DNA of 50,599 nucleotides from a virus: the IMG/VR virus record IMGVR_UViG_3300010885_055821, positions 1 through 50,599 of that record. One strand, written 5' to 3'. Below, piece after piece: positions 9,646 to 29,120 of this stretch. Numbering within the stretch: position 1 is the stretch's first letter; every line of letters starts with the position of its first letter. The notes below the pieces were generated by a model, which saw only the letters and a program-made list of their open reading frames with translations, was not told where the DNA came from and searched no databases. Position numbers and translations under genes: made by a program.

Positions 9646-11447
9646 AATACATTAATTTTAACAGTGTCTCGATTCAAAACTTTTTATCAGTTGGTAATAC
9701 TCCTGTTGTTGTTTGCTTTAGCAAAGGGCTTCATATTATTACCGGTGTTAATAAAGATAAAGAAGATAGACGTAATGCTGTTGGAAAGACTACAATCTTA
9801 GATGCAATTAATTTTGCTATCTATGGTAATACTGTTAGAGATCTTAAAAAAGATCTAATTGTTAATAATATCACCAATGGTATTTGTGAAGTAAAATTAG
9901 ATTTCACCATTATTAATAATGGTGTAGGTAAGAATTATGTAGTTATTAGAAAAATTAACCCTTCAGAGTTGGCGTTGTATTGTGATGATGAAAATATCAC
10001 TATGCATACAATGGCTGGTACTAATAATTTGATTACTGATCTTATATCTTGTAATCAAGAGGTGTTTCAAAATTGTATTATTATGAGTGCAAATGCTTCT
10101 ACACCTTTTATGGCCAAAAAGATGGTGGAGAAAAGAAAGTTTATTGAAGGTATTTTTAATCTTGAAATTTTCAGTGATATGTTATCTAAAGTTAGATCTT
10201 CATATAATGAAAATAAGAAAATTTGTGACATAGATTCAGCTAAACACGAATCCACGGTCACTGCTTTAAATAACTACATTAGTCAAAGACAAGGTGTTCT
10301 TGATCACCGTAAGAGTTCTAAGATTTCTAAAGAAAAACAATTAGAAGAAAACAATGTTAAAATACAGAAACTTAAAAATGCTGATACTTCTGACAGTGGT
10401 GATATAGATATAGAGGGTAGACAGAAAAAGATTGAGGATTTTAATACAAATATAGATAAACTCGATAAAGAGTTACATAATCTCACCGTTTCTACCACAA
10501 CTCATCAGACTGAAATCAATGTTTTAACTACTAAATCTACTAAAATTGGTACTAAAAATGATCTTTGTGAGGTTTGTCTTAAACCTATTGATGTAAATGA
10601 TAGAGCTCATATTAATACAGCTAAAGAAAATATTAAAAATGAGATAAACACCTTAAATGATAAGCTTACTGAACAGAAAAAGCTTATTAACACTTATAAA
10701 GGTGCAAAAGATAAAATAAAAGAAAAAATTACAGTACTTAATAATGAAATTTCACAAATTTCTAAGAAGTTAGAATCTAAAAAATCACTTTCATCTGCAA
10801 TTAAGAGTCTAGAAGACTGGAATATAACTATTGTTAAAGAATTAGAAGAACTCAATAGTGATATTACCAATTTTGATACTTTAATTGATCAAACAACTGT
10901 TAAAGTTAAAGATTCTGAGACTAAACTCACTGATTTAAAGAATACTATTAATATGTTGGATGCAGTGAAATACATTGTATCTGAAGAAGGTGTTAAGTCG
11001 TTCATTATTAAACGTATATTGGAATTGTTTAATAATAGAATTGCTTATTATTTGAAGAAGATGGATAGTAATTGCACTTGTATTTTTGATGAATTTTTTG
11101 ATGAAAAATTTACCAATGAAAAAGGTAAAACATGTTCATATTTCAATTTTTCAGGTGCTGAAAGAAAAGCTATCGATTTATCGTGTTTGTTTACTTTCAT
11201 GGATGTTAGAAGATTACAAGGTGGTGTTGCAATTAACATTAGCATATATGATGAATTATTAGACAGTAGTGTTGATGAACGTGGTATTGAGCTAGTACTC
11301 AACATTCTTAAAGAGAGAGTTGATGAGTATAATGAATGTGTTATGGTTATATCACATAGAAAAGAGAGTGGTAAGTTTGCAACCGGTGAAGTTGTATGTT
11401 TAGAAAAGAAAAACGGTATAACTACTAGAGTGGAATACACTGAATAA
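9642..11447 (+). CDS. 46: Recombination ATPase subunit gp46 (SbcC/Rad50-like)
   Basis: 601 aa (T4: 560). ABC-type ATPase split by long coiled coils (about 180-300 and 320-440). The zinc-hook pair is C309-x-x-C312 in DLCEVCLKPI. The signature motif is FSGAERKAIDLS and Walker B is ISIYDELLD. Walker A is unusual: GVN at residues 35-37 is separated from NAVGKTT (45-51) by an extra charged segment, as in some other marine T4-like gp46 proteins as I recall them. It partners gp47 in DNA end resection. It starts within the stop of the glycosyltransferase gene (ATGA). Confidence 0.93.
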   Translation: MKYINFNSVSIQNFLSVGNTPVVVCFSKGLHIITGVNKDKEDRRNAVGKTTILDAINFAIYGNTVRDLKKDLIVNNITNGICEVKLDFTIINNGVGKNYVVIRKINPSELALYCDDENITMHTMAGTNNLITDLISCNQEVFQNCIIMSANASTPFMAKKMVEKRKFIEGIFNLEIFSDMLSKVRSSYNENKKICDIDSAKHESTVTALNNYISQRQGVLDHRKSSKISKEKQLEENNVKIQKLKNADTSDSGDIDIEGRQKKIEDFNTNIDKLDKELHNLTVSTTTHQTEINVLTTKSTKIGTKNDLCEVCLKPIDVNDRAHINTAKENIKNEINTLNDKLTEQKKLINTYKGAKDKIKEKITVLNNEISQISKKLESKKSLSSAIKSLEDWNITIVKELEELNSDITNFDTLIDQTTVKVKDSETKLTDLKNTINMLDAVKYIVSEEGVKSFIIKRILELFNNRIAYYLKKMDSNCTCIFDEFFDEKFTNEKGKTCSYFNFSGAERKAIDLSCLFTFMDVRRLQGGVAINISIYDELLDSSVDERGIELVLNILKERVDEYNECVMVISHRKESGKFATGEVVCLEKKNGITTRVEYTE

Positions 11448-11464
11448 GTTGTATAAAATATGGT

Positions 11465-12667
11465 ATGCTAAATACCATGGCAAATTCACCATTTGCTGCA
11501 CCTTTCAAACCAGTTTTTAATGCTCCAGTACAAAAAGCCTCTGAACCTCAACGTAAGCAAAATGTAAATGATGTTCCAAAAGTATATAATTTTTTAGCTG
11601 ATCATGGTGGTTGTGGTTGTTGGAGATTAATTTGGCCTGAGATGATAATGAATCTTAGAGGAGATTTGTTATCATTTAGTAGTATTTTAATGGCTAAAGA
11701 TGAAAATTTGTATAGATTAATGAAAACTATACGAATTCAACGTCAAGCTTCACCACATCAATTAGAGTTTATTAAATTTCTTAAATTAATACAAACAAAA
11801 TGTGATTTTAAAATTGTTTATGAAATTGATGATGTAGTGTTTAGAGAAGAAATTCCTGATTATAACAAATTTAAAACAGCATTTACATCTGATGAAGTAA
11901 GAAATTCTGCACAACAAATAATGGAGTTGAGTGATGAAATCACTGTCACATGTGATTACATGAAAGATTATTATAAATCAAAACTTACAAATCAAAATGT
12001 AACTGTATTACCTAACTATGTACCGCGATTCTGGATGGGTAATTTTTATGATAAAGATAAATTGTTAAAGAATTTAAACGATAATAAGAAAAGACCTCGT
12101 ATTCTTTATAATGGTTCTGCTGCTCATTTTGATGTTGATAATAGAATTAAACAGCGTGATGACTTCTTTCACGTAAATGAAGCTATAATTAAAACGGTTA
12201 AGAAATATAGGTGGGTATTTATGGGTGCTGTACCACATACTCTTATTCCCTATGTTAAATCTGGTGATATTGAATTTGTACCATGGTCTAAAATTATGGA
12301 TTACCCATATACAATCAATAATTTGAATGTTCAAATGATGATTGAACCGTTAGCTGATAATACATTTAATAAATGCAAAAGCGATTTAAAATATCTAGAA
12401 GGGGCATGCTACGGTATTCCTGTAGTGTGTCAAGATATTGAAACATATAAGAATGCTCCTATTAGATTTAAAACAGGTGATGAAATGATTGATCAAATAG
12501 ATAATACATTAAAAGAAGGTGCGTATAAGAGATCATCTACATCAGCCAGATCATTTGCAGAAAGTAGATTCTTAGAAAATCCTGAAAATATTGGTAAATA
12601 TGTAGAGATGTATTTACATTCCTATAGATCCCCAGAGAGGAAACTTCTTAATAAGATTAATCCTTGA
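11465..12667 (+). CDS. GT-B type glycosyltransferase
   Basis: 400 aa. A family 4/group 1-like fold is suggested by FKIVYEIDDVVF in the first domain (about 117-128), VLPNYVPRFW at the domain junction, PRILYNGSAAH at the start of the second domain, and NKCKSDLKYLEGACYGIPVV near residues 302-321, which corresponds to the nucleotide-sugar binding E-x-x-x-x-G-x-P-V-V region. Genes like this are frequent in marine T4-like phages. ATG at 11465 is used; a second ATG at 11477 (MANSPFAAP) is possible. TATAAA lies 7 nt upstream, and a 7-bp inverted repeat (ATGGTAT / ATACCAT) covers both ATGs. Confidence 0.72.
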   Translation: MLNTMANSPFAAPFKPVFNAPVQKASEPQRKQNVNDVPKVYNFLADHGGCGCWRLIWPEMIMNLRGDLLSFSSILMAKDENLYRLMKTIRIQRQASPHQLEFIKFLKLIQTKCDFKIVYEIDDVVFREEIPDYNKFKTAFTSDEVRNSAQQIMELSDEITVTCDYMKDYYKSKLTNQNVTVLPNYVPRFWMGNFYDKDKLLKNLNDNKKRPRILYNGSAAHFDVDNRIKQRDDFFHVNEAIIKTVKKYRWVFMGAVPHTLIPYVKSGDIEFVPWSKIMDYPYTINNLNVQMMIEPLADNTFNKCKSDLKYLEGACYGIPVVCQDIETYKNAPIRFKTGDEMIDQIDNTLKEGAYKRSSTSARSFAESRFLENPENIGKYVEMYLHSYRSPERKLLNKINP

Positions 12668-12692
12668 TGTTCCAATAAAATATAAATATACT
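12664..12692 (+). promoter_or_regulatory. Sigma70-like promoter before the DNA polymerase gene, with overlapping TATAAATA
   Basis: TTGATG (12664-12669), 17-nt spacer, TATACT (12687-12692). The predicted start is about 5 nt before the ATG. A TATAAATA octamer (12681-12688) overlaps the -10 box, so late transcription could also begin here. An inverted repeat ACTCATA/TATGAGT (12690-12709) brackets the start. Confidence 0.55.
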
Positions 12693-12703
12693 CATAGTAT
12701 ATT

Positions 12704-15289
12704 ATGAGTTATAGAAACGTTACCTACCATCCTAGAGAACAACTAATGAGGTTGTATACATGGGATGAAAATGGTAAAAGAATTACAGTTGATCATACTT
12801 ATCAACCATATCTATATACTGAGGTTGCTACAAGTGCACAGGGAAGTGCTACGTCTCTATTTAAGACTCCATTAAAGAAACTCACTTTTCAGACTCAATA
12901 CGATAGAAGTAGATTTATTAAAGATAATAATATTACTAGAGTTTTTGAAAACTTACCACAAATACAACAATTTTTAATTGATAGTTACTGGCAAGAAAAC
13001 GAAAAGCTTGAGTTTACTAAGAATCCTATCAAGATGTTACTTCTTGACATTGAGACTTATTCACCTGACGGATTTCCTGATATTATTACTGCAAATCATA
13101 CTATAAACGTTATTACCGTTTATGATAGTATTTCTAAAGAGTATCATACTTGGGGTTTGAAACCTTATACATCTAAAAATAAAGATCATGTTTATTATTA
13201 TTGTAAGACAGAACGTGATTTACTTTTAGGGTTTATTGGTTATCTTGAGAAAGACTACCCCGATATTCTTAGTGGTTGGAATTCTGAATTTTTTGATATT
13301 CCATACATTATTAATAGATGTACACGTATATTAGGTGAGGATGAAACTAAACGTCTATCACCGGTAAATAAAATATATTCAAGAACATTCAGAGGTGACT
13401 TTGGTAGGGAGCAAATTCGCTGGCATATTGATGGTGTATCTCTATTAGACTATCTTGATATATATAAACGATTTGCACCATTACGGGAGTCTTATAAGCT
13501 TGATTATATTGCTGAATTGGAAGTAGGTGATAAAAAGGTTAAGTTTGAAAATCAAGACTTGTTTAGTTTGGCTGATAATAACTGGGAAACATTTATTGAT
13601 TACAACCTTCAAGACGTGCGTCTGTTGACGAAACTTGAAGAAAAATTACAATATTTGAGTTTAGTAAGAATGCTTGCTTACGTTGGTTTAACAACGTTTG
13701 AAAGCGCAATGGGTAGCTTGTCTATCATTAACGGTGCAATTGCTATTAGAGGTAGATTTAGGGGTCAAATTGTACCCACCTTTATTCGTAATGACCCTGA
13801 TCATAAGAATCCTGGTGCATATGTAGCGGATCCTAAGGGTGGTTTTCAAAAATACATATTTTCATTTGATGCTACCAGTCTATATCCGACTGTAATGATT
13901 AGTCTTAATTTATCACCTGAGACTAAAATCGGTAAAATTACTAGTTTTGATAACGGTGAATATACTATACTACTTACTAATGGTAAGCAAAAAGTAGTAT
14001 CGCAACCTATCTTTAATAAGTTTGTTAAAGATCATGAGATAACAGTTACTAAAGCTAATTGTTTATTTACTCAAAAAGAAAAAGGTATTATACCTGAAGT
14101 GGTAGATTATTACTTTGGTAAACGTAATGAACTTAAAAAGAAGTACGTTGAACTTAAGAAAAACTTATCTAAAGTTAGTAAAAATGATCCTAACTATACT
14201 GAACTTGAAGCAGACATGCAACGTTTTGGTACTCGTCAGTTAACCGTAAAAATCTTAATTAACTCAATTTACGGTTATTTTGGTAACAAACAAGCACCTA
14301 TTGGTGATGACGATATTGCTGCTTCTATTACTCTCACCGGCCAAGCTGTAATTAAACAGAGTAATGAGATTATTAAGAAGTATATCTGTGAAAAAACTGG
14401 TATGACTTCTGAGCAAATTGAACAAGATAGTCCTATTATATATAACGATACTGATAGCTCTTATGTTTCAATTAGACATCTAATTGAAAAACTTAATATA
14501 CCTTTTATAGATGATAAAGGTATTGTGTCGCAAGATGTTTATAAACTTGAAGGTGAGATTGTTAATGCTCTCAACACTTCAATTAAAGAATGGGGTATAA
14601 AAGAGTTAAATAGTAAAGATTGTAGGTTTAGTTTTAAACGTGAGTATATAGGTGATGTAGGTATATTCTTACAGAAGAAACGTTATATTTTGCATGTCCT
14701 TGATGAAGAAGGTGTGCAAATGAATAAGACTAAGTATACTGGTGTTGAAGTGGTTAGAACATCTACGCCGAATTCATTAAAACCACTACTTAAAGAAATT
14801 ATAGAAGTAATGTTAATGACGCAAAACTATGCTAAAACTAATGAAGTATTAAAGAAGGTATATGATGAATTTATGAAATTACCTGTAGAGAGTGTTTGTA
14901 AGGTAATGGGGTTAAAAAACTATGAGGAATATGCTTCCAAGTGTAAGGACTTTATACCTGCTAAAGGTATGCCTATACATTGTAAAGCTTCATATTTTTA
15001 TAATAAAATAATTGAGAAAGATAAACTTGATAAGTATTATGAACATATTAGTTCTGGTGATAAGGTGAGATTTGTTTACGTTCAAAAACCTAATACTTTC
15101 AATGTAGATGTAATAGGATTTAAATACCAATGGCCTAAAGAGTTTAGTAAATATTTTAAACCTGATTATGAAAAGTCGTTTGAAAAGATGGTATTTGCAC
15201 CTATTGAAGGTATTTATGAAGCAGTAAAATGGAATGCACATATACCTAGTCGTGCTGTGCAGATTGATTTATTTGACTTACTAAGTTGA
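12704..15289 (+). CDS. 43: Family B DNA polymerase gp43
   Basis: 861 aa (T4: 898), complete. Exonuclease motifs: LLLDIETYS (Exo I), GWNSEFFDIP (Exo II), YNLQDVRLL (Exo III). Polymerase motifs: DATSLYPTVM (motif A, about residue 390), ILINSIYGYFGN (motif B), IIYNDTDSS (motif C, about 581) and QKKRY. The C-terminus, QIDLFDLLS, resembles the Q-x-(D/S)-L-F clamp-binding peptide and should contact gp45. No split or intein is visible. This is the replicative polymerase with proofreading. Confidence 0.96.
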   Translation: MSYRNVTYHPREQLMRLYTWDENGKRITVDHTYQPYLYTEVATSAQGSATSLFKTPLKKLTFQTQYDRSRFIKDNNITRVFENLPQIQQFLIDSYWQENEKLEFTKNPIKMLLLDIETYSPDGFPDIITANHTINVITVYDSISKEYHTWGLKPYTSKNKDHVYYYCKTERDLLLGFIGYLEKDYPDILSGWNSEFFDIPYIINRCTRILGEDETKRLSPVNKIYSRTFRGDFGREQIRWHIDGVSLLDYLDIYKRFAPLRESYKLDYIAELEVGDKKVKFENQDLFSLADNNWETFIDYNLQDVRLLTKLEEKLQYLSLVRMLAYVGLTTFESAMGSLSIINGAIAIRGRFRGQIVPTFIRNDPDHKNPGAYVADPKGGFQKYIFSFDATSLYPTVMISLNLSPETKIGKITSFDNGEYTILLTNGKQKVVSQPIFNKFVKDHEITVTKANCLFTQKEKGIIPEVVDYYFGKRNELKKKYVELKKNLSKVSKNDPNYTELEADMQRFGTRQLTVKILINSIYGYFGNKQAPIGDDDIAASITLTGQAVIKQSNEIIKKYICEKTGMTSEQIEQDSPIIYNDTDSSYVSIRHLIEKLNIPFIDDKGIVSQDVYKLEGEIVNALNTSIKEWGIKELNSKDCRFSFKREYIGDVGIFLQKKRYILHVLDEEGVQMNKTKYTGVEVVRTSTPNSLKPLLKEIIEVMLMTQNYAKTNEVLKKVYDEFMKLPVESVCKVMGLKNYEEYASKCKDFIPAKGMPIHCKASYFYNKIIEKDKLDKYYEHISSGDKVRFVYVQKPNTFNVDVIGFKYQWPKEFSKYFKPDYEKSFEKMVFAPIEGIYEAVKWNAHIPSRAVQIDLFDLLS

Positions 15290-16773: not shown

Positions 16774-18348
16774 ATGGTGAATATCGGTTTTTACGGCTCT
16801 CATAACGGTGGCTTAGCAATTGAACAGGATGGCAAGTATACCGTTTTAGAGTTTGAAAGGTTCTTTAATAGTAAGAATTTAGGTTTAGCTCAATACAAAA
16901 CCGCTAAAAATAGAGAATTCGGGCTTCATTCAGCTCTTATTTATCTACAAAACGAACTTGGTATTGAGTTTCCAGTCGATACATTAATACACAATAATAC
17001 CGATGTTACCCATAATAATGTTACAACTGCATTTAAAGACTTTATTCCTGCTAAAAAAGTAGTAAAAACTACACATCACAGAGCTCATGCAGCGTCGTCG
17101 TATTATCAAACAGATTACGACGACGCTCTTATTTTCTCTTTTGATGGTGGTGGTGATGATGGTTTCTTCAATGTATACACTGCAAATAGAAAAGACGGTA
17201 TAGTGCAAATAGGTAATCATTTACTTGATGCTGGATTTGCATACATGATTTTTGCCCATTATATTGAACCAATTAAACAAGAATGGATTGGAGATGGTAA
17301 TCTTGTTTATAGTGGTAAAATAATGGGTCTTTGTAATTTTGGTGTATCAGTTCCTGAGTGGGAACCAGCTATGATAGAATTTTATCTATCAAAACCTTGC
17401 GGTGAAACCTATCAAGCTAAGATTAAAAAGCTGTGTGAACGTATAAAAATACATTTTAATGATGGTCTTAGACTTAATGGTGAAACAGGTTACAATTTAG
17501 CTGCAACATCACAAAAGGTTTTTGAATATATATTTTTAAAAATTGCACAACCTTACTTTGATAAATACAGTAATTATCCAATTATCTTAACTGGTGGATG
17601 TGGTTTGAATATACTTCTTAATCAAAAATTAAAAGAAATGTTTACCGACCGTAAGATATTTATTGCACCAAATAGTAGTGATTGTGGTATTGCATTAGGT
17701 CAATTATTAGATTTTACCAGACCTTCCACACCAGTGGATATTACATATGGTGGTGTGGATGTGTTTGATAGGTGTACTTTACCAGAAATTGTTGAAAATA
17801 GAATTACTCAATATGCAACACCTCAAAATGTGGCTAAGCTTTTTAAAGATGGAATGATAGTTGGTGTGGTGCAAGGTAAATGTGAACATGGTCCACGAGC
17901 ATTAGGTCATAGAAGTATAATGTGTAACCCTGCATTTCCTGAAATGAAAGATATTCTTAATAAGAAAGTTAAGAATAGAGAATGGTATAGACCGTTTGCA
18001 CCTGTTGTAAGATTAGAAGATGTTTCCAAATATTTTGAATGGGAAGGTGAGTGTAAACACATGCTTTTCTGTCCTAAAGTAAAACAAGAATGGAGAGAAA
18101 AGCTTTCATCAATTACACATATTGATGGTACTGCAAGAGTACAAACTATTACAAGAGAACAAAATCAGTGGTTATATGATGTATTAACTGAAGTCAGTAA
18201 AATATGTGAACATGGTGTTTTATTAAATACATCATTTAATTTAGCTGGTAAACCAATATTAAATACATACAGAGATGCTTTATCAGTTTTAGATAAAACA
18301 CAAATGGATTATGTTGTGTTAGAAAATATTCTTGTAAAAAAATCTTGA
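16774..18348 (+). CDS. NodU/TobZ-family carbamoyltransferase
   Basis: 524 aa. The N-terminal half has THHRAHAAS (about residues 100-108), the HHxxHA motif of this family, and FSFDGGGDDG. The C-terminal domain has HGPRALGHRSI (about 372-382), followed by YRPFAPVV and VLLNTSFN. Family knowledge: these enzymes make carbamoyl-AMP from carbamoyl phosphate and ATP, then carbamoylate hydroxyl groups, as on Nod factors and antibiotics; phage relatives have been reported to carbamoylate 5-hydroxymethylcytosine in DNA. No thymidylate-synthase-like hydroxymethylase is present in the window, so the substrate, DNA base or sugar, is open. It is followed by the QueC-like gene. Confidence 0.88.
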   Translation: MVNIGFYGSHNGGLAIEQDGKYTVLEFERFFNSKNLGLAQYKTAKNREFGLHSALIYLQNELGIEFPVDTLIHNNTDVTHNNVTTAFKDFIPAKKVVKTTHHRAHAASSYYQTDYDDALIFSFDGGGDDGFFNVYTANRKDGIVQIGNHLLDAGFAYMIFAHYIEPIKQEWIGDGNLVYSGKIMGLCNFGVSVPEWEPAMIEFYLSKPCGETYQAKIKKLCERIKIHFNDGLRLNGETGYNLAATSQKVFEYIFLKIAQPYFDKYSNYPIILTGGCGLNILLNQKLKEMFTDRKIFIAPNSSDCGIALGQLLDFTRPSTPVDITYGGVDVFDRCTLPEIVENRITQYATPQNVAKLFKDGMIVGVVQGKCEHGPRALGHRSIMCNPAFPEMKDILNKKVKNREWYRPFAPVVRLEDVSKYFEWEGECKHMLFCPKVKQEWREKLSSITHIDGTARVQTITREQNQWLYDVLTEVSKICEHGVLLNTSFNLAGKPILNTYRDALSVLDKTQMDYVVLENILVKKS

Positions 18349-18372
18349 CCTATTTATAAAACCTATCAATAT
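18345..18372 (+). promoter_or_regulatory. Probable promoter, TTGACC-N16-CAATAT
   Basis: A strong -35 box (TTGACC) with a weak -10 box at 16-nt spacing. The ATG of the QueC-like gene follows after 6 nt, the same geometry as the better sites. A TATACT at 18370-18375 is an alternative -10 box. Confidence 0.4.
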
Positions 18373-18378
18373 ACTTAT

Positions 18379-19116
18379 ATGCGTAAAAAAGTGGTTTTAG
18401 GTGTAAGTGGTGGTATGGATTCCAGTGTTCTTTTACATAAAGCAATTAACCACTATGATGATATTATTGCTGTATTTTTTAATTATAATCAAAGACATAT
18501 AATTGAGAAAAATTGTGCAAATAAACAATTAGAGCACGTTAAGTTAAAAATTGCACATACACAGACTATAGAATATAAGACTATTGATGTGAGCTTTATT
18601 AGAGAAATTGCTCCAACTAGCTCACTTACTAATGATAATATTACAACACCCAATGTAAAAAAAGTAATGGGGGAAGCTCAGCCATTGAGTTATGTACCTA
18701 ATCGTAATTTAATGTTTATTAGTATATTAGCATCACTTGCAGAGGCTAATAATGCTTGTACTATTTGGCATGGTTCAGCTCAAGCAGATAGTTTAGCTGG
18801 TTATTGGGATTCTAGTAATGAATTCAGAGATTACTTAAATAAGTTACTTTGTTTGAATAGGCATATACAGATATCTGTAGAAACTCCTTTAATTAATATG
18901 TCAAAAAAAGATATTATTTTGAATGGTATTAAATTAGGTGTAAATTTTGGAAATACATACACCTGTTATAGTGGTAATGTTGTAGCTGATGCTGAAAGTG
19001 TGAGTAGTAGTTTACGTATTAAAGGATTTATAGACGCAGGCTATATAGATCCTATACAATATAAGCAAGATTTAACCAATATTTGGGTTAAATATAACTG
19101 CAAACCTGTTAATTAA
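18379..19116 (+). CDS. QueC-like ATP-dependent enzyme lacking most zinc ligands
   Basis: 245 aa. The N-terminus has the PP-loop SGGMDSS (residues 10-16). YVPNRNLMFISILASLAEAN (from about 108) and TPLINMSKKDII match QueC, which makes 7-cyano-7-deazaguanine (preQ0) from carboxy-deazaguanine, ammonia and ATP. The zinc site differs: QueC normally has C-Y-N-G ... C-G-x-C-x-x-C, but here only Cys196 (TCYSG) remains and the other three positions are Ala, Val and Ser. No QueD, QueE, FolE or transglycosylase is visible. It may therefore be a divergent preQ0 synthase or an amidating enzyme of another pathway. A class II amidotransferase, a possible ammonia source, lies 0.8 kb downstream. Its stop overlaps the convergent acidic gene by 4 nt. 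Confidence 0.7.
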   Translation: MRKKVVLGVSGGMDSSVLLHKAINHYDDIIAVFFNYNQRHIIEKNCANKQLEHVKLKIAHTQTIEYKTIDVSFIREIAPTSSLTNDNITTPNVKKVMGEAQPLSYVPNRNLMFISILASLAEANNACTIWHGSAQADSLAGYWDSSNEFRDYLNKLLCLNRHIQISVETPLINMSKKDIILNGIKLGVNFGNTYTCYSGNVVADAESVSSSLRIKGFIDAGYIDPIQYKQDLTNIWVKYNCKPVN

Positions 19117-19904
19117 AGTTCATCTTCAGGTAATTCTTCTTCAGAATATTCAGTCATGTGTAAATCTTCACTCTCATCTTCTACTTCAGGTAAATCACCT
19201 AAAGCATCTTCGTAATCTTCAAGATCTTCATCATCTGTTTCATCTTCATCATCGATATCCGGTAAATCAATTATACTTGGTTTTACCGGTTTTTCTTCAC
19301 CACTGAAGTAGAATTTTAAAATGTCAAGCATTGCTAAACTTGCAACTTTATTTTTTGCATCTGCTTCATTCACACCTTTACCAACAAGATAATTAACAAT
19401 TTCTTGACCTGTAGCTGGTGTATCTTCAACATATCTAATAATATCTTGAGACATACCATCTGATGGTGCTTTCTCTGCTAAATCACCAGCTGTAAGGGTA
19501 GCATTGAAATTAAAACTACCTACATCTTCAATAGGACCTGTTGATACATCAATATCAACATCTTCATCTGGCTCAACACTCGGTTCTTCTGCTTTAACTT
19601 CTATTTCTTTTGGTGTTTCTACTTCAGATTCAACTTCTGCTTCAGTTTCAGGTGTGGCCCCACCTATTTCTGCAGCTTTTTCTGCTTCATACTCTGCATC
19701 AGCTTGTTTCATTAACTGTTGACGCCTAATTCTTTGTATCATTTCATAGTATGATTCTAAACGTTTTTCACCTGTTTTAGGGTCTTCTATGATTTGTTTA
19801 ACACGTTCGGAAAATTGTTTCTTCCTACCTCTAGCTTCTTCCACTATATCGGTAATTGAATGAAAATACTGTTCAAAAATGAGTTGACTGTCTGATTTGG
19901 CCAT
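19113..19904 (-). CDS. Acidic hypothetical protein, late promoter
   Basis: 263 aa, not recognised. The first 80 residues are helical and basic (ARGRKKQFSERVKQIIEDP), followed by a long Glu/Val-rich low-complexity region (about 80-125). A compact helical segment (MSQDIIRYVEDTPATGQEIVNYLVGKG) resembles a winged-helix or small helical bundle, and the C-terminus is very acidic (DDEDETDDEDLEDYEDA). An AATAAATA late element lies 5 nt before the ATG, so a virion or scaffold-type role is likely. It sits as a single leftward gene among rightward early genes. Confidence 0.75.
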   Translation of the reverse strand: MAKSDSQLIFEQYFHSITDIVEEARGRKKQFSERVKQIIEDPKTGEKRLESYYEMIQRIRRQQLMKQADAEYEAEKAAEIGGATPETEAEVESEVETPKEIEVKAEEPSVEPDEDVDIDVSTGPIEDVGSFNFNATLTAGDLAEKAPSDGMSQDIIRYVEDTPATGQEIVNYLVGKGVNEADAKNKVASLAMLDILKFYFSGEEKPVKPSIIDLPDIDDEDETDDEDLEDYEDALGDLPEVEDESEDLHMTEYSEEELPEDEL

Positions 19905-19909
19905 GAAAA

Positions 19910-19917
19910 TATTTATT
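19910..19917 (-). promoter_or_regulatory. Late-type element AATAAATA, 5 nt before ATG
   Basis: Minus-strand octamer one base from TATAAATA, with the spacer TTTTC and the ATG at 19904. Confidence 0.65.
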
Positions 19918-19923
19918 GTTTAC

Positions 19924-19952
19924 TTGTGGTTTTAAATATAAGTCACTATTAT
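19924..19952 (+). promoter_or_regulatory. Sigma70-like promoter TTGTGG-N17-TATTAT, start codon at +1
   Basis: The -10 box ends 6 nt before the ATG at 19959, the start required by the catalytic Cys2 of the amidotransferase. This supports both the promoter and the leaderless arrangement. Confidence 0.6.
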
Positions 19953-19958
19953 AAAAAT

Positions 19959-20645
19959 ATGTGCGCAATCTTTGGTGCAAGTAATTTAGATCGATTTTTT
20001 CAGCTTTATGAAGCTAATAAACAAAGAGGTACATTCTCTTTTGGTTGTGTAGTAGCACATGGTCTACATAGTGGTACTTGTGTATTTCATAACTTATCTA
20101 TCATAAAAGATAATGATATTAATAGAGGTCTTAAATCTCTTGAACAATACCGAAATATGTTACCAACATATTTTACAGGTCACATACAAGCACCAACTGG
20201 TATAGATAGGGAAGGTACATCATCTATGCACCCATTTGAATATGGTAATTTTGTTGTAGCTCATAATGGGGTATTAACAAATTTTACAGAATTAAAAGAG
20301 AAACATAATTATACGGATAATACTTCAAACGTAGATAGTTCTATTATACCGAGATTAATTGATGGTTGTTTAAATAATAAACACTCACATTTATCAGATA
20401 AGGCTATTAAAGAAGCATTAAGTCAACTTAATGGTACGTTTAGTAATTGGATATGGGATACCAAATTTATAGAATTATTCATTGCAAGGTTAAGTAGTAC
20501 ATTGTTTTATAAGGGTGATGAATTTTCATCAGTACAAGTTGATGATATGATTGAGGTACCGGAAAAGAAAATACTTTGGTATTTAGATAATAGATTTATT
20601 GTTTCTGAAATTTTTGACGCTGAATCACACTTTTTTACATTGTAA
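19959..20645 (+). CDS. Stand-alone class II glutamine amidotransferase
   Basis: 228 aa. The start is set at the ATG giving MCAIFGAS, because Cys2 is the nucleophile freed by removal of Met1; an in-frame GTG 33 nt upstream is rejected. Further family features: FTGHIQAPTG (glutamine-binding loop), AHNGVLTNF (oxyanion-hole Asn-Gly) and VDSSIIPRLID. Only the glutaminase half of enzymes such as GlmS, PurF or AsnB is present, with no synthase domain. Such a protein hydrolyses glutamine and passes ammonia to a partner. The QueC-like PP-loop enzyme nearby is an obvious candidate, giving a split asparagine-synthetase-like pair, but this is inference. The stop overlaps the gp41 start (TAATG). Confidence 0.85.
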   Translation: MCAIFGASNLDRFFQLYEANKQRGTFSFGCVVAHGLHSGTCVFHNLSIIKDNDINRGLKSLEQYRNMLPTYFTGHIQAPTGIDREGTSSMHPFEYGNFVVAHNGVLTNFTELKEKHNYTDNTSNVDSSIIPRLIDGCLNNKHSHLSDKAIKEALSQLNGTFSNWIWDTKFIELFIARLSSTLFYKGDEFSSVQVDDMIEVPEKKILWYLDNRFIVSEIFDAESHFFTL

Positions 20646-26396: not shown

Positions 26397-27380
26397 ATGA
26401 AAATACTTGTAATTGGTAAAGGCTTTATTGGCGAACGTCTTAGTTATTTCCTTTCTAAAGTCGAAGATTTTGAGGTTCATACCATAAATCAAACTCTTGT
26501 GGATTATACTAAGCCAGAAATGCTTCGTATGTTTCTCGGGTATCATGCTAATACTATAAACTCACCATTTGATCGTATTATTATTTGTACCGGTTACACC
26601 GGTAAGCCAAATGTAGATGCGTGTGAATTAACTGAAAATAAATCTGTTACGTATTTTTATAATGTAACTGTACCACTTACCATTGTTAGAGTTGCTAATG
26701 AATTCGAGGTAAGATGTATCCACGTAGGTAGTGGGTGTATTTATGATGGTTATGACACTTATTACAGTGAAACAGATGTACCTAATTTTGGTATCTATAA
26801 CCCTGATAGTAGTTTCTACAGTAAAACTAAACATATTAGTGAAACGGTATTAAAAGATATATGTCATGTGTTTAGAATTAGAATGCCATATACTTTTATA
26901 CCAGGTGATAAAAATTATCTCACAAAAATCTTAAAGTATCCTGTAACTTTATCTAAATTTAATAGTATTACTTGTGTGGATGATTTTTATAATTTTATCT
27001 ATAACTTTATGTTGTTAGATATTGATTATGTTACCGATTTTGGTGTGTTTAATGTAACCAACCCCGCACCGGTTAATGCTAATACTATAGTTGATATAAT
27101 GGTTGAAGCAGGGTTAGAAGAAGCTAGAAATAAAAAATGGGTGTTTACCGATAATTTGGCTGATTTGAACATCACTGCTAAACGTAGTAACTGTGCTCTT
27201 AATACAACCAAGATTGCTCAAATGGGTCTTATCTTACCACCTACTGAGGAATCATTACTTCGTACATTGAGATTGTATAAAGAGTATAGTGAAAAAACCG
27301 GAATAACGTGTGATAGTGAAATAGTCAACACCAACGGTGAAATTATTAGCGTTGATGCTGATGCTGATATAACTATATGA
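26397..27380 (+). CDS. NAD-dependent sugar epimerase/reductase (RmlD-like)
   Basis: 327 aa, extended short-chain dehydrogenase. The N-terminus KILVIGKGFIGERL (residues 2-15) is the Rossmann dinucleotide motif. ICTGYTGKPNVDACE resembles the RmlD segment around V-D-x-A-E. VGSGCIYDG holds the catalytic Ser/Thr region, and FYSKTK supplies the Tyr-x-x-x-Lys pair. RmlD reduces dTDP-4-keto-rhamnose, and RmlA and RmlB follow at once with overlapping frames, so a role in making a dTDP-deoxysugar is likely. RmlC (epimerase) is not present. Another nucleotide-sugar epimerase activity is possible. Confidence 0.72.
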   Translation: MKILVIGKGFIGERLSYFLSKVEDFEVHTINQTLVDYTKPEMLRMFLGYHANTINSPFDRIIICTGYTGKPNVDACELTENKSVTYFYNVTVPLTIVRVANEFEVRCIHVGSGCIYDGYDTYYSETDVPNFGIYNPDSSFYSKTKHISETVLKDICHVFRIRMPYTFIPGDKNYLTKILKYPVTLSKFNSITCVDDFYNFIYNFMLLDIDYVTDFGVFNVTNPAPVNANTIVDIMVEAGLEEARNKKWVFTDNLADLNITAKRSNCALNTTKIAQMGLILPPTEESLLRTLRLYKEYSEKTGITCDSEIVNTNGEIISVDADADITI

Positions 27381-28150
27381 AATATAAAGGTATAATCTTA
27401 GCAGGGGGTAACGGTACAAGACTTTATCCACTAACTACTAGCGTATCTAAACAGCTCCTACCTGTTTATGATAAACCGATGATTCATTATTCGGTAGCAC
27501 AAATGCTCGAATTTGGAATTGATGAAATATTAATTATTACTTCATCGTATGAAAATGTAACACTGTATTCTAAACTATTAAGTGATGTAAATGCATATTT
27601 TACATATGTGGTACAGAATAACCCGTGTGGTATTGCTAATGCTTTTCATTTAGGTGAACATTTTATAGGTGAGGATAATGTTTGCCTAATGTTAGGTGAT
27701 AATATTTTTTATGGAAATTTCTCTTTAGTTGCTGACACAATTAAAAATACAACCCATAATTTAATTTTAGGTATTGAAGTATCTAACCCTAAATCATATG
27801 GTGTGATGTCTTTTAATGAAAAATGTGCACTAGAAAAAATTGTTGAAAAACCTGAAATTCCTCCTTCAAATTACGCTGTACCTGGTGTGTATTTCTTCGA
27901 TAACACCGTAATTGATAAAGCTAAAAAACTAATACTATCAAAAAGAGGGGAATATGAAATAACTGATGTTATAAACCAGTATATTGATGAAGAAAAAATG
28001 TGTCATATATTGATGCATAGTGAATCGGTAACGTGGTTTGATTGTGGTCAGATAGATGATTTGTTAGAGGCAAGTAATTTTATTGCAGCGGTTCAAAAAC
28101 GCACAGGTAAAATAGTTGGAGATGTGTATGCTAAACGAATTAAACAATAA
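27377..28150 (+). CDS. rmlA: Glucose-1-phosphate thymidylyltransferase
   Basis: 257 aa, slightly shorter than cellular RmlA (about 290). LAGGNGTRLYPLT (residues 8-20) is the nucleotide-binding signature, and SKQLLPVYDKPMI follows as in RmlA. LMLGDNIFYG, PGVYFFDNTV and EITDVINQYI complete the family pattern. It makes dTDP-glucose from dTTP and glucose-1-phosphate. The start overlaps the epimerase stop (ATGA), and rmlB starts inside its end. The missing C-terminal helices may affect allosteric control by dTDP-rhamnose. Confidence 0.92.
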   Translation: MKYKGIILAGGNGTRLYPLTTSVSKQLLPVYDKPMIHYSVAQMLEFGIDEILIITSSYENVTLYSKLLSDVNAYFTYVVQNNPCGIANAFHLGEHFIGEDNVCLMLGDNIFYGNFSLVADTIKNTTHNLILGIEVSNPKSYGVMSFNEKCALEKIVEKPEIPPSNYAVPGVYFFDNTVIDKAKKLILSKRGEYEITDVINQYIDEEKMCHILMHSESVTWFDCGQIDDLLEASNFIAAVQKRTGKIVGDVYAKRIKQ

Positions 28151-29120
28151 AAATATAGTTGTAACAGGTGGTTATGGGTTTATAGGTAATCACCTCATTA
28201 GATTGTTGGTAGAAAAAACATCTGCAAATGTGATAGTTGTAGATAAACTAACCTATGCATCAACATATTCAAATGAATTAGTTTCTAATACACATAATTT
28301 TGTGTATTTAGATATTTCATCTAAGTATTTCGGTGAAAATCTTATAAATACAGTAGTTAAACGTCAACTTATACCAAAGAACAGTAAAATAGATTATGTT
28401 TTACATCTTGCAGCTGAGTCACATGTAGATAGTAGCATCAAAAATCCGGGTATATTCGTTGAAACAAATGTAAATGGCACTTTAAATGTACTTGAATTTG
28501 TTAAAACTCAAGATTGTAAACTTATTCACGTTTCTACCGATGAAGTTTATGGTCATCTTACAAACTATAAAGACTGTTTTACGGAAGAAACACCTTTAAA
28601 TCCAAGATCACCGTATAGTGCATCGAAGGCAGCTTCTGATTTATTAGTACAATCATACGTAAACACCTACGGAATCTCTGCAATCATTACTAGATGCTGT
28701 AATAATTTTGGTATTTATCAGCATCGTGAAAAATTTATACCAACTTGTATTAAATCTATTGTTAATAATAAACCAATTCCTTTATACGGTAATGGAAGTA
28801 ATGTGAGAGAATGGATAAGTGCTAAAGACCATGCTTTGGCAATATTACAAATTGCAGTTAAAGGTACATTTGGTCAGATTTATAATATTGGATCTGGTAT
28901 TGAATTTACAAATCTTGAGTTAGCTACTAAAATAATTGATTTTGCTTACAATATTCACGGTATCAAAGGTGAAATAGTTAATGTTGAAGATAGATTAGGT
29001 CATGATTTTAGATATGCAATTGATAATTCTAAGTATAGAAACGAAATTAGCAATGATTCTTACACTACATTAGACTTTTCATTACATGAAATTTTTCAAT
29101 TTTACAAAAATAAATATTAA
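28128..29120 (+). CDS. rmlB: dTDP-glucose 4,6-dehydratase
   Basis: 330 aa. VVTGGYGFIGNHL near residue 10 is the NAD-binding motif. LAAESHVDSSI, VSTDEVYG (catalytic Thr-Asp-Glu) and SPYSASKAASD (Tyr-x-x-x-Lys) are RmlB signatures. RmlB converts dTDP-glucose to dTDP-4-keto-6-deoxyglucose, the branch point to many deoxysugars. ATG at 28128 is preferred because GGAG lies 6 nt upstream; ATG at 28122 is also possible. It overlaps rmlA by 23 nt and the next gene by 35 nt. Confidence 0.92.
   Translation: MLNELNNKNIVVTGGYGFIGNHLIRLLVEKTSANVIVVDKLTYASTYSNELVSNTHNFVYLDISSKYFGENLINTVVKRQLIPKNSKIDYVLHLAAESHVDSSIKNPGIFVETNVNGTLNVLEFVKTQDCKLIHVSTDEVYGHLTNYKDCFTEETPLNPRSPYSASKAASDLLVQSYVNTYGISAIITRCCNNFGIYQHREKFIPTCIKSIVNNKPIPLYGNGSNVREWISAKDHALAILQIAVKGTFGQIYNIGSGIEFTNLELATKIIDFAYNIHGIKGEIVNVEDRLGHDFRYAIDNSKYRNEISNDSYTTLDFSLHEIFQFYKNKY

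Follow-up and report, generated by a model that had tools for sequence, protein, structure and literature searches.

Zinc is regarded as a hallmark of QueC and is described as required for the enzyme, whose nitrogen source is given as ammonia. In PMC13329287, the zinc site is given as C-x8-C-x2-C-x2-C, and Y35, R99, Y131 and Y189 are named as essential residues of the E. coli enzyme. In phage 9g, Gat-QueC together with DpdA leads to dG+ in DNA (PMC6884629). Within limited coverage of the literature, these two papers were found to describe neither a zinc-less preQ0 synthase nor a stand-alone glutaminase as a partner of QueC.

The locus considered here belongs to a freshwater T4-like phage and encodes a QueC-like protein without an intact zinc site as well as a separate glutaminase. 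These two proteins are likely the halves of a glutamine-dependent preQ0 synthase, which would correspond to Gat-QueC divided over two genes and would serve 7-deazaguanine DNA modification of the known kind.

Locus structure

The window (the whole stretch of DNA analysed, 50,599 nt) carries three genes between UvsX (to 16769) and a gp41-type helicase (from 20645), and all three are real and located where the original prediction had placed them:

16774-18348, plus strand: carbamoyltransferase, NodU/TobZ-type (PF16861, 1.5e-61; PF02543, 2.4e-16)
18379-19116, plus strand: zinc-less QueC-like PP-loop enzyme, 245 aa (PF06508, 7.3e-46)
18406-18423, plus strand: PP-loop SGGMDS, residues 10-15, in which all but M are invariant in relatives
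18964-19008, plus strand: former zinc site, residues 196-210, with C196, D204, S207 and S210 instead of four Cys
19113-19904, minus strand: acidic ORF between the QueC and glutaminase genes, no convincing family match
19959-20645, plus strand: stand-alone class II glutaminase, 228 aa, Cys2 nucleophile (PF13522, 2e-9; PF13537, 3.6e-8)

Pfam found both the N- and C-terminal Carbam_trans domains in the product of the first gene. The acidic ORF was observed in the window clade only, and elsewhere the same gap holds other genes or none. Class II glutaminases require MC at their N-terminus. Because the listed GTG start at 19926 is too far upstream and would bury the nucleophilic Cys, the start was moved to the ATG at 19959, which gives MCAIFG and Cys2. 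With this correction, the predicted class II glutaminase without a synthase half near the QueC-like gene was borne out; Cys2 is invariant in 26 of 26 aligned relatives, and the AlphaFold2 model (pLDDT 90.0) has the glutaminase domains of GFAT/GlmS as its best PDB matches.

Elsewhere in the window lie a sulfotransferase, a conserved glycosyltransferase (phrog_7162) and sugar-nucleotide genes (204-899 on the minus strand, 11465-12667 and 26397-29120). In another locus of the collection, polymerase and helicase genes (L012:116-2794 and 10642-13661) are split by extra sequence relative to the near-identical L011, and this extra sequence resembles inteins or homing inserts.

A single loss of the QueC zinc site

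The QueC-like protein has the PP-loop and a single remaining zinc cysteine, just as had been noted from the sequence. The cysteine is Cys196, and the other three positions are D204, S207 and S210; reading C-D-S-S, the protein lacks the four-Cys site of canonical QueC. Its TIGR00364 score of 139.9 bits lies below the NCBIfam equivalog cut-off of 150.3, and L027, a zinc-bearing sister, reaches 172.2 bits. In an alignment of 44 rows the ligand positions read CDSS in 13 and CDTS in 6 zinc-less sequences and CCCC in all the remaining 25, and in a set of 99 rows they read CDSS (44), CDTS (28), CSTS (3) and CCCC (24). The 99-row tree was built after removal of the motif columns, from an improved alignment and without L033, a long outgroup row. 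It placed the zinc-less rows, a clade of 75 with C-[D/S]-[S/T]-S, on one side of one branch with 96/87 support; an earlier, quick tree of 100 rows, in which the outgroup was poorly placed, had shown two zinc changes. The zinc site was lost once in this clade and its ligands were replaced by a conserved set.

The zinc-less QueC is under purifying selection. Pairwise dN/dS within the clade is 0.02-0.20 for QueC and 0.06-0.44 for the glutaminase, the values being rough where a pair has dS above 1, and the range for QueC indicates a protein that is not decaying. The protein keeps the ATP site and nearly all residues of the QueC substrate site, including the contacts to ATP and to 7-deazaguanine. 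SGGxDS, YxQxHxxE, VPxRN, the conserved K and the CY tyrosine are all present in the window protein. SGGxDS, YxQxHxxE, the Y-x-D of YPDC, K and CY are kept in every zinc-less row of the 44-row set (19/19), where VPxRN occurs in 16 and VAxRN in 3. The YPDC motif retains Y and D, with P replaced by W and C by G or S (YWDG or YWDS; YWDS in the window), and it varies in the zinc-bearing phage sisters too. The AlphaFold2 model (pLDDT 92.2) has QueC structures 2pg3 and 3bl5 as its best PDB matches and relatives, followed by Cap9.

Association with a stand-alone glutaminase

In a first set of loci, QueC and the glutaminase sit between UvsX and gp41, and every QueC of the phage group whose contig extends far enough downstream is accompanied by a glutaminase, except L028, a zinc-less locus with room downstream in which no recognisable glutaminase was found. 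A second survey covered 81 phage loci, some of them repeating contigs of the first set, and a glutaminase was present no more than 5 kb downstream in 67 of the 67 where this region was visible (66 zinc-less, the window included, and one zinc-bearing); the other 14 had less than 4 kb of contig left, and no locus with room was without the gene. In many relatives the glutaminase gene lies next to QueC or overlaps with it. In bacterial relatives of QueC, zinc was kept in 80/80 and a glutaminase of this kind was downstream in 0/80. Throughout the clade the pairing has almost no exceptions and the two genes form a real pair, so that the check on co-occurrence that accompanied the original prediction came out positive for these two.

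This near-invariant pairing, the adjoining genes and the existence of a fused form in 9g support the idea of a split amidotransferase well. The part of that idea that did not stand is its model, asparagine synthetase B: the right analogue is Gat-QueC, because both sequence and fold mark the PP-loop half as QueC, and it retains the ATP and 7-deazaguanine contacts. In Pfam no Asn_synthase domain was detected at E 0.1, and the best family was QueC.

Pathway genes in related phages

FolE, QueD and QueE are not visible inside the 50,599-nt window. The earlier remark that no other preQ0 pathway gene can be seen is true of the window itself, yet it reflects an edge effect, as the window stops short of these genes. 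In G014, whose QueC is 75% identical to that of the window, FolE2, QueD and QueE lie beyond the point matching window base 1. A contig ending at the window start (G031, IMGVR_UViG_3300010885_037048) overlaps it by six bases, CCTGAT, and a shared ORF runs on in frame across the joint. The overlap, the continuous frame and synteny suggest that this contig probably derives from the same phage as the window; it surfaced through a FolE2 search, an exact-pattern search for contigs overlapping the left end of the window having returned none. It carries:

2.5-3.6 kb left of window base 1: FolE2 (273.9 bits, cut-off 215)
5.7-6.4 kb left of window base 1: QueD (best match QueD family, below the NCBIfam cut-off)
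7.3-8.1 kb left of window base 1: QueE (best match QueE family, below the NCBIfam cut-off)

Beyond the other edge, the close relative G001 encodes a QueF that has the expected Cys and Asp and lies about 7 kb beyond the position where the right end of the window aligns. This gene is next to the major capsid gene, its neighbourhood on both sides consists of capsid and tail genes, and no formyltransferase or DpdA-type gene was found beside it. Of 16 relatives, 7 were seen to have FolE, 9 QueD and 9 QueE, and two that lack FolE have FolE2; these counts are lower bounds because the relatives are fragments. FolE2 takes the place of FolE in the window clade (L075:11323-12369; L085-L164); relatives of this FolE2 occur in 194 viral stretches, and the majority of the 80 loci retained from them hold QueD and QueE as well. 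In G001, an ORF (L237:4842-5798) resembles GMP reductase/IMP dehydrogenase by eye.

In the large relatives G006, G007, G017, G025 and G028, a DpdA-type protein family (phrog_19058) is encoded beside or near QueF. The protein was first noticed in two large relatives because of its conservation and was then recognised through Flavobacterium phage immuto, to whose annotated DNA guanine transglycosylase (DpdA) it is 51% identical. It is also 48-49% identical to proteins of Campylobacter phages, and one group of such phages is highly modified with dADG according to a report cited in PMC6884629. Profile comparison of the family with DpdA1 and DpdA2 gave no significant match, and there was no PDB match by sequence. 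Searches of the relatives with Pfam TGT, KVP40 DpdA2 and PHROG 887, one of the three uninformative, found no transglycosylase, nor did a regular-expression search for TGT motifs recover it. Across 16 further QueC contigs, mostly zinc-less, the DpdA-type gene and QueF occur in the same five, which include the four largest (G025, G028, G036 and G037). In the partly sequenced window lineage (G000, G001, G010, G014 and G031) no DpdA-type gene was found.

G006, G007, G017 and G025 encode a formyltransferase relative; none was found in G028. The gene order DpdA, formyltransferase, kinase, QueF is common to immuto and G006; a 193-kb relative (L173:8156-11347) and immuto (L238:19992-22918) share the order DpdA-type transglycosylase, PF00551 formyltransferase, P-loop kinase, QueF. 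Contigs of the phage group repeatedly encode a DUF366 (PF04017) protein (L172:13658-14242 and others).

These gene sets bear on the product of the pair. The two halves could instead make up a split archaeosine synthase that converts preQ0 further into the amidine G+, in which case the phage DNA would carry dG+ rather than preQ1-type bases. This is suggested by 9g Gat-QueC, the closest fused relative, which both halves match and which yields dG+ with dpdA (PMC6884629). It is nonetheless unlikely, as preQ0 is consumed by QueF, an enzyme that both close and larger relatives have, several relatives have the formyltransferase near the DpdA-type gene, and QueF adjoins the same pair in KVP40-type phages; the same paper reports the DNA of Vibrio phage nt-1 as mainly dPreQ0 with little dG+. 

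Alternatively, the zinc-less QueC might make no preQ0 at all, and either conjugate 7-carboxy-7-deazaguanine to protein, as Cap9 does, or stop at the amide ADG. Proteins with the QueC fold have been co-opted to deazaguanylate proteins (PMC13279940, PMC13329287), Cap9 is among the best structural matches and the zinc site is gone. This is very improbable, however, given that QueF and the DpdA-type protein are encoded in genomes with zinc-less QueC as well as in those with zinc-bearing QueC and that an ammonia-supplying partner suits amide or nitrile formation and not peptide conjugation.

FolE or FolE2, QueD, QueE, QueF and the DpdA-type gene in relatives and on the abutting contig leave the proposal of a new modification route mostly unsupported, since a standard preQ0 pathway seems to lie outside the window, which the original prediction had itself named as refuting such a route. 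What is new is mostly the enzyme variant, not the route.

The neighbouring carbamoyltransferase

The carbamoyltransferase accompanies only 6 of the 100 distinct QueC rows. These fall into two small clades, and in each case the gene immediately precedes QueC; the enzyme of the second clade is 57% identical to that of the window clade, and most other QueC loci are without it. This two-clade distribution fits an optional add-on. Of the three-gene cassette first proposed, the QueC/glutaminase pair holds, but the carbamoyltransferase is not a regular member.

A phage member of this enzyme family carbamoylates 5hmC (PMC8670742), which had led to the suggestion of a link to hydroxymethylcytosine and could make the carbamoyltransferase the functional core of the locus, acting on that base, with QueC and the glutaminase incidental. 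A homologue of thymidylate synthase/hydroxymethylase was found in 0 of 12 records, the window included and several of them partial genomes, so a 5hmC role is unsupported here. The absence of the enzyme from most QueC loci also speaks against such a core function, and the sugar-nucleotide and glycosyltransferase genes of the window suit a sugar substrate better, making a core function on hydroxymethylcytosine extremely improbable. On account of those same genes, a sugar is a plausible substrate. It is quite unlikely, in turn, that the enzyme of the two clades carbamoylates a 7-deazaguanine in DNA (e.g. preQ1 at its aminomethyl group), so that a carbamoylated base would replace the formylated one.

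Discussion

The proposed split preQ0 synthase builds on gene content, pairing, residue conservation, the single zinc loss, selection and the predicted folds. The two proteins would form a complex, in which the glutaminase, through Cys2, would free ammonia from glutamine for transfer to the PP-loop subunit. The latter would adenylate 7-carboxy-7-deazaguanine (CDG), to be supplied by FolE2, QueD and QueE upstream of the QueC step, and add the ammonia to give preQ0 (7-cyano-7-deazaguanine). QueF would act after preQ0, followed by a transglycosylase; in larger relatives the DpdA-type protein would insert the base into DNA, sometimes with an adjoining formyltransferase. A network of hydrogen bonds may stand in for the zinc, or the partner may provide support instead. 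That zinc-bearing and zinc-less QueC occur in the same place in similar gene sets argues that both do the same job.

As an old and large phage clade, the zinc-less enzymes would represent a natural test of the role of zinc and of the nitrogen source in QueC. The clade also points to 7-deazaguanine DNA in widespread T4-like aquatic phages, where such bases would protect from restriction.

Among known systems, Gat-QueC of phage 9g and Crenarchaeota likewise combines a class II glutaminase with a QueC-type PP-loop enzyme, and HMMs of the two halves match the 9g protein with 124.5 bits (2.4e-40) for QueC and 30.6 bits (1.3e-11) for the glutaminase. In 9g, however, they form one polypeptide, whereas here they are separate genes (18379-19116 and 19959-20645); 9g keeps all four zinc Cys, of which the window QueC has lost three, and the relatives of the window have QueF. 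KVP40-type Vibrio phages (KVP40.0124/0125; 2.275.O_472/473) share the same split pair, with adjoining genes in a folE/queF neighbourhood, and KVP40 has a DpdA2-type gene. Their QueC differs in retaining all four zinc Cys and is about 35% identical to the window protein, and the loci examined have no carbamoyltransferase. Canonical bacterial QueC (PF06508 cluster 1) has the same fold, ATP loop and 7-deazaguanine-site residues, but the window protein departs from it in the lost zinc site, the change of YPDC to YWDS and the glutaminase partner. Cap9 of type IV CBASS and QatC combine the zinc motif with a nucleotidyltransferase or QatB partner, whereas the window QueC has lost the zinc site and has UvsX, the glutaminase and gp41 as neighbours. 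Flavobacterium phage immuto belongs to another phage genus and has no glutaminase annotated within the 40 kb examined, but resembles the phages described here in having QueC, QueD, QueE, FolE, DpdA, formyltransferase and QueF annotated in one phage.
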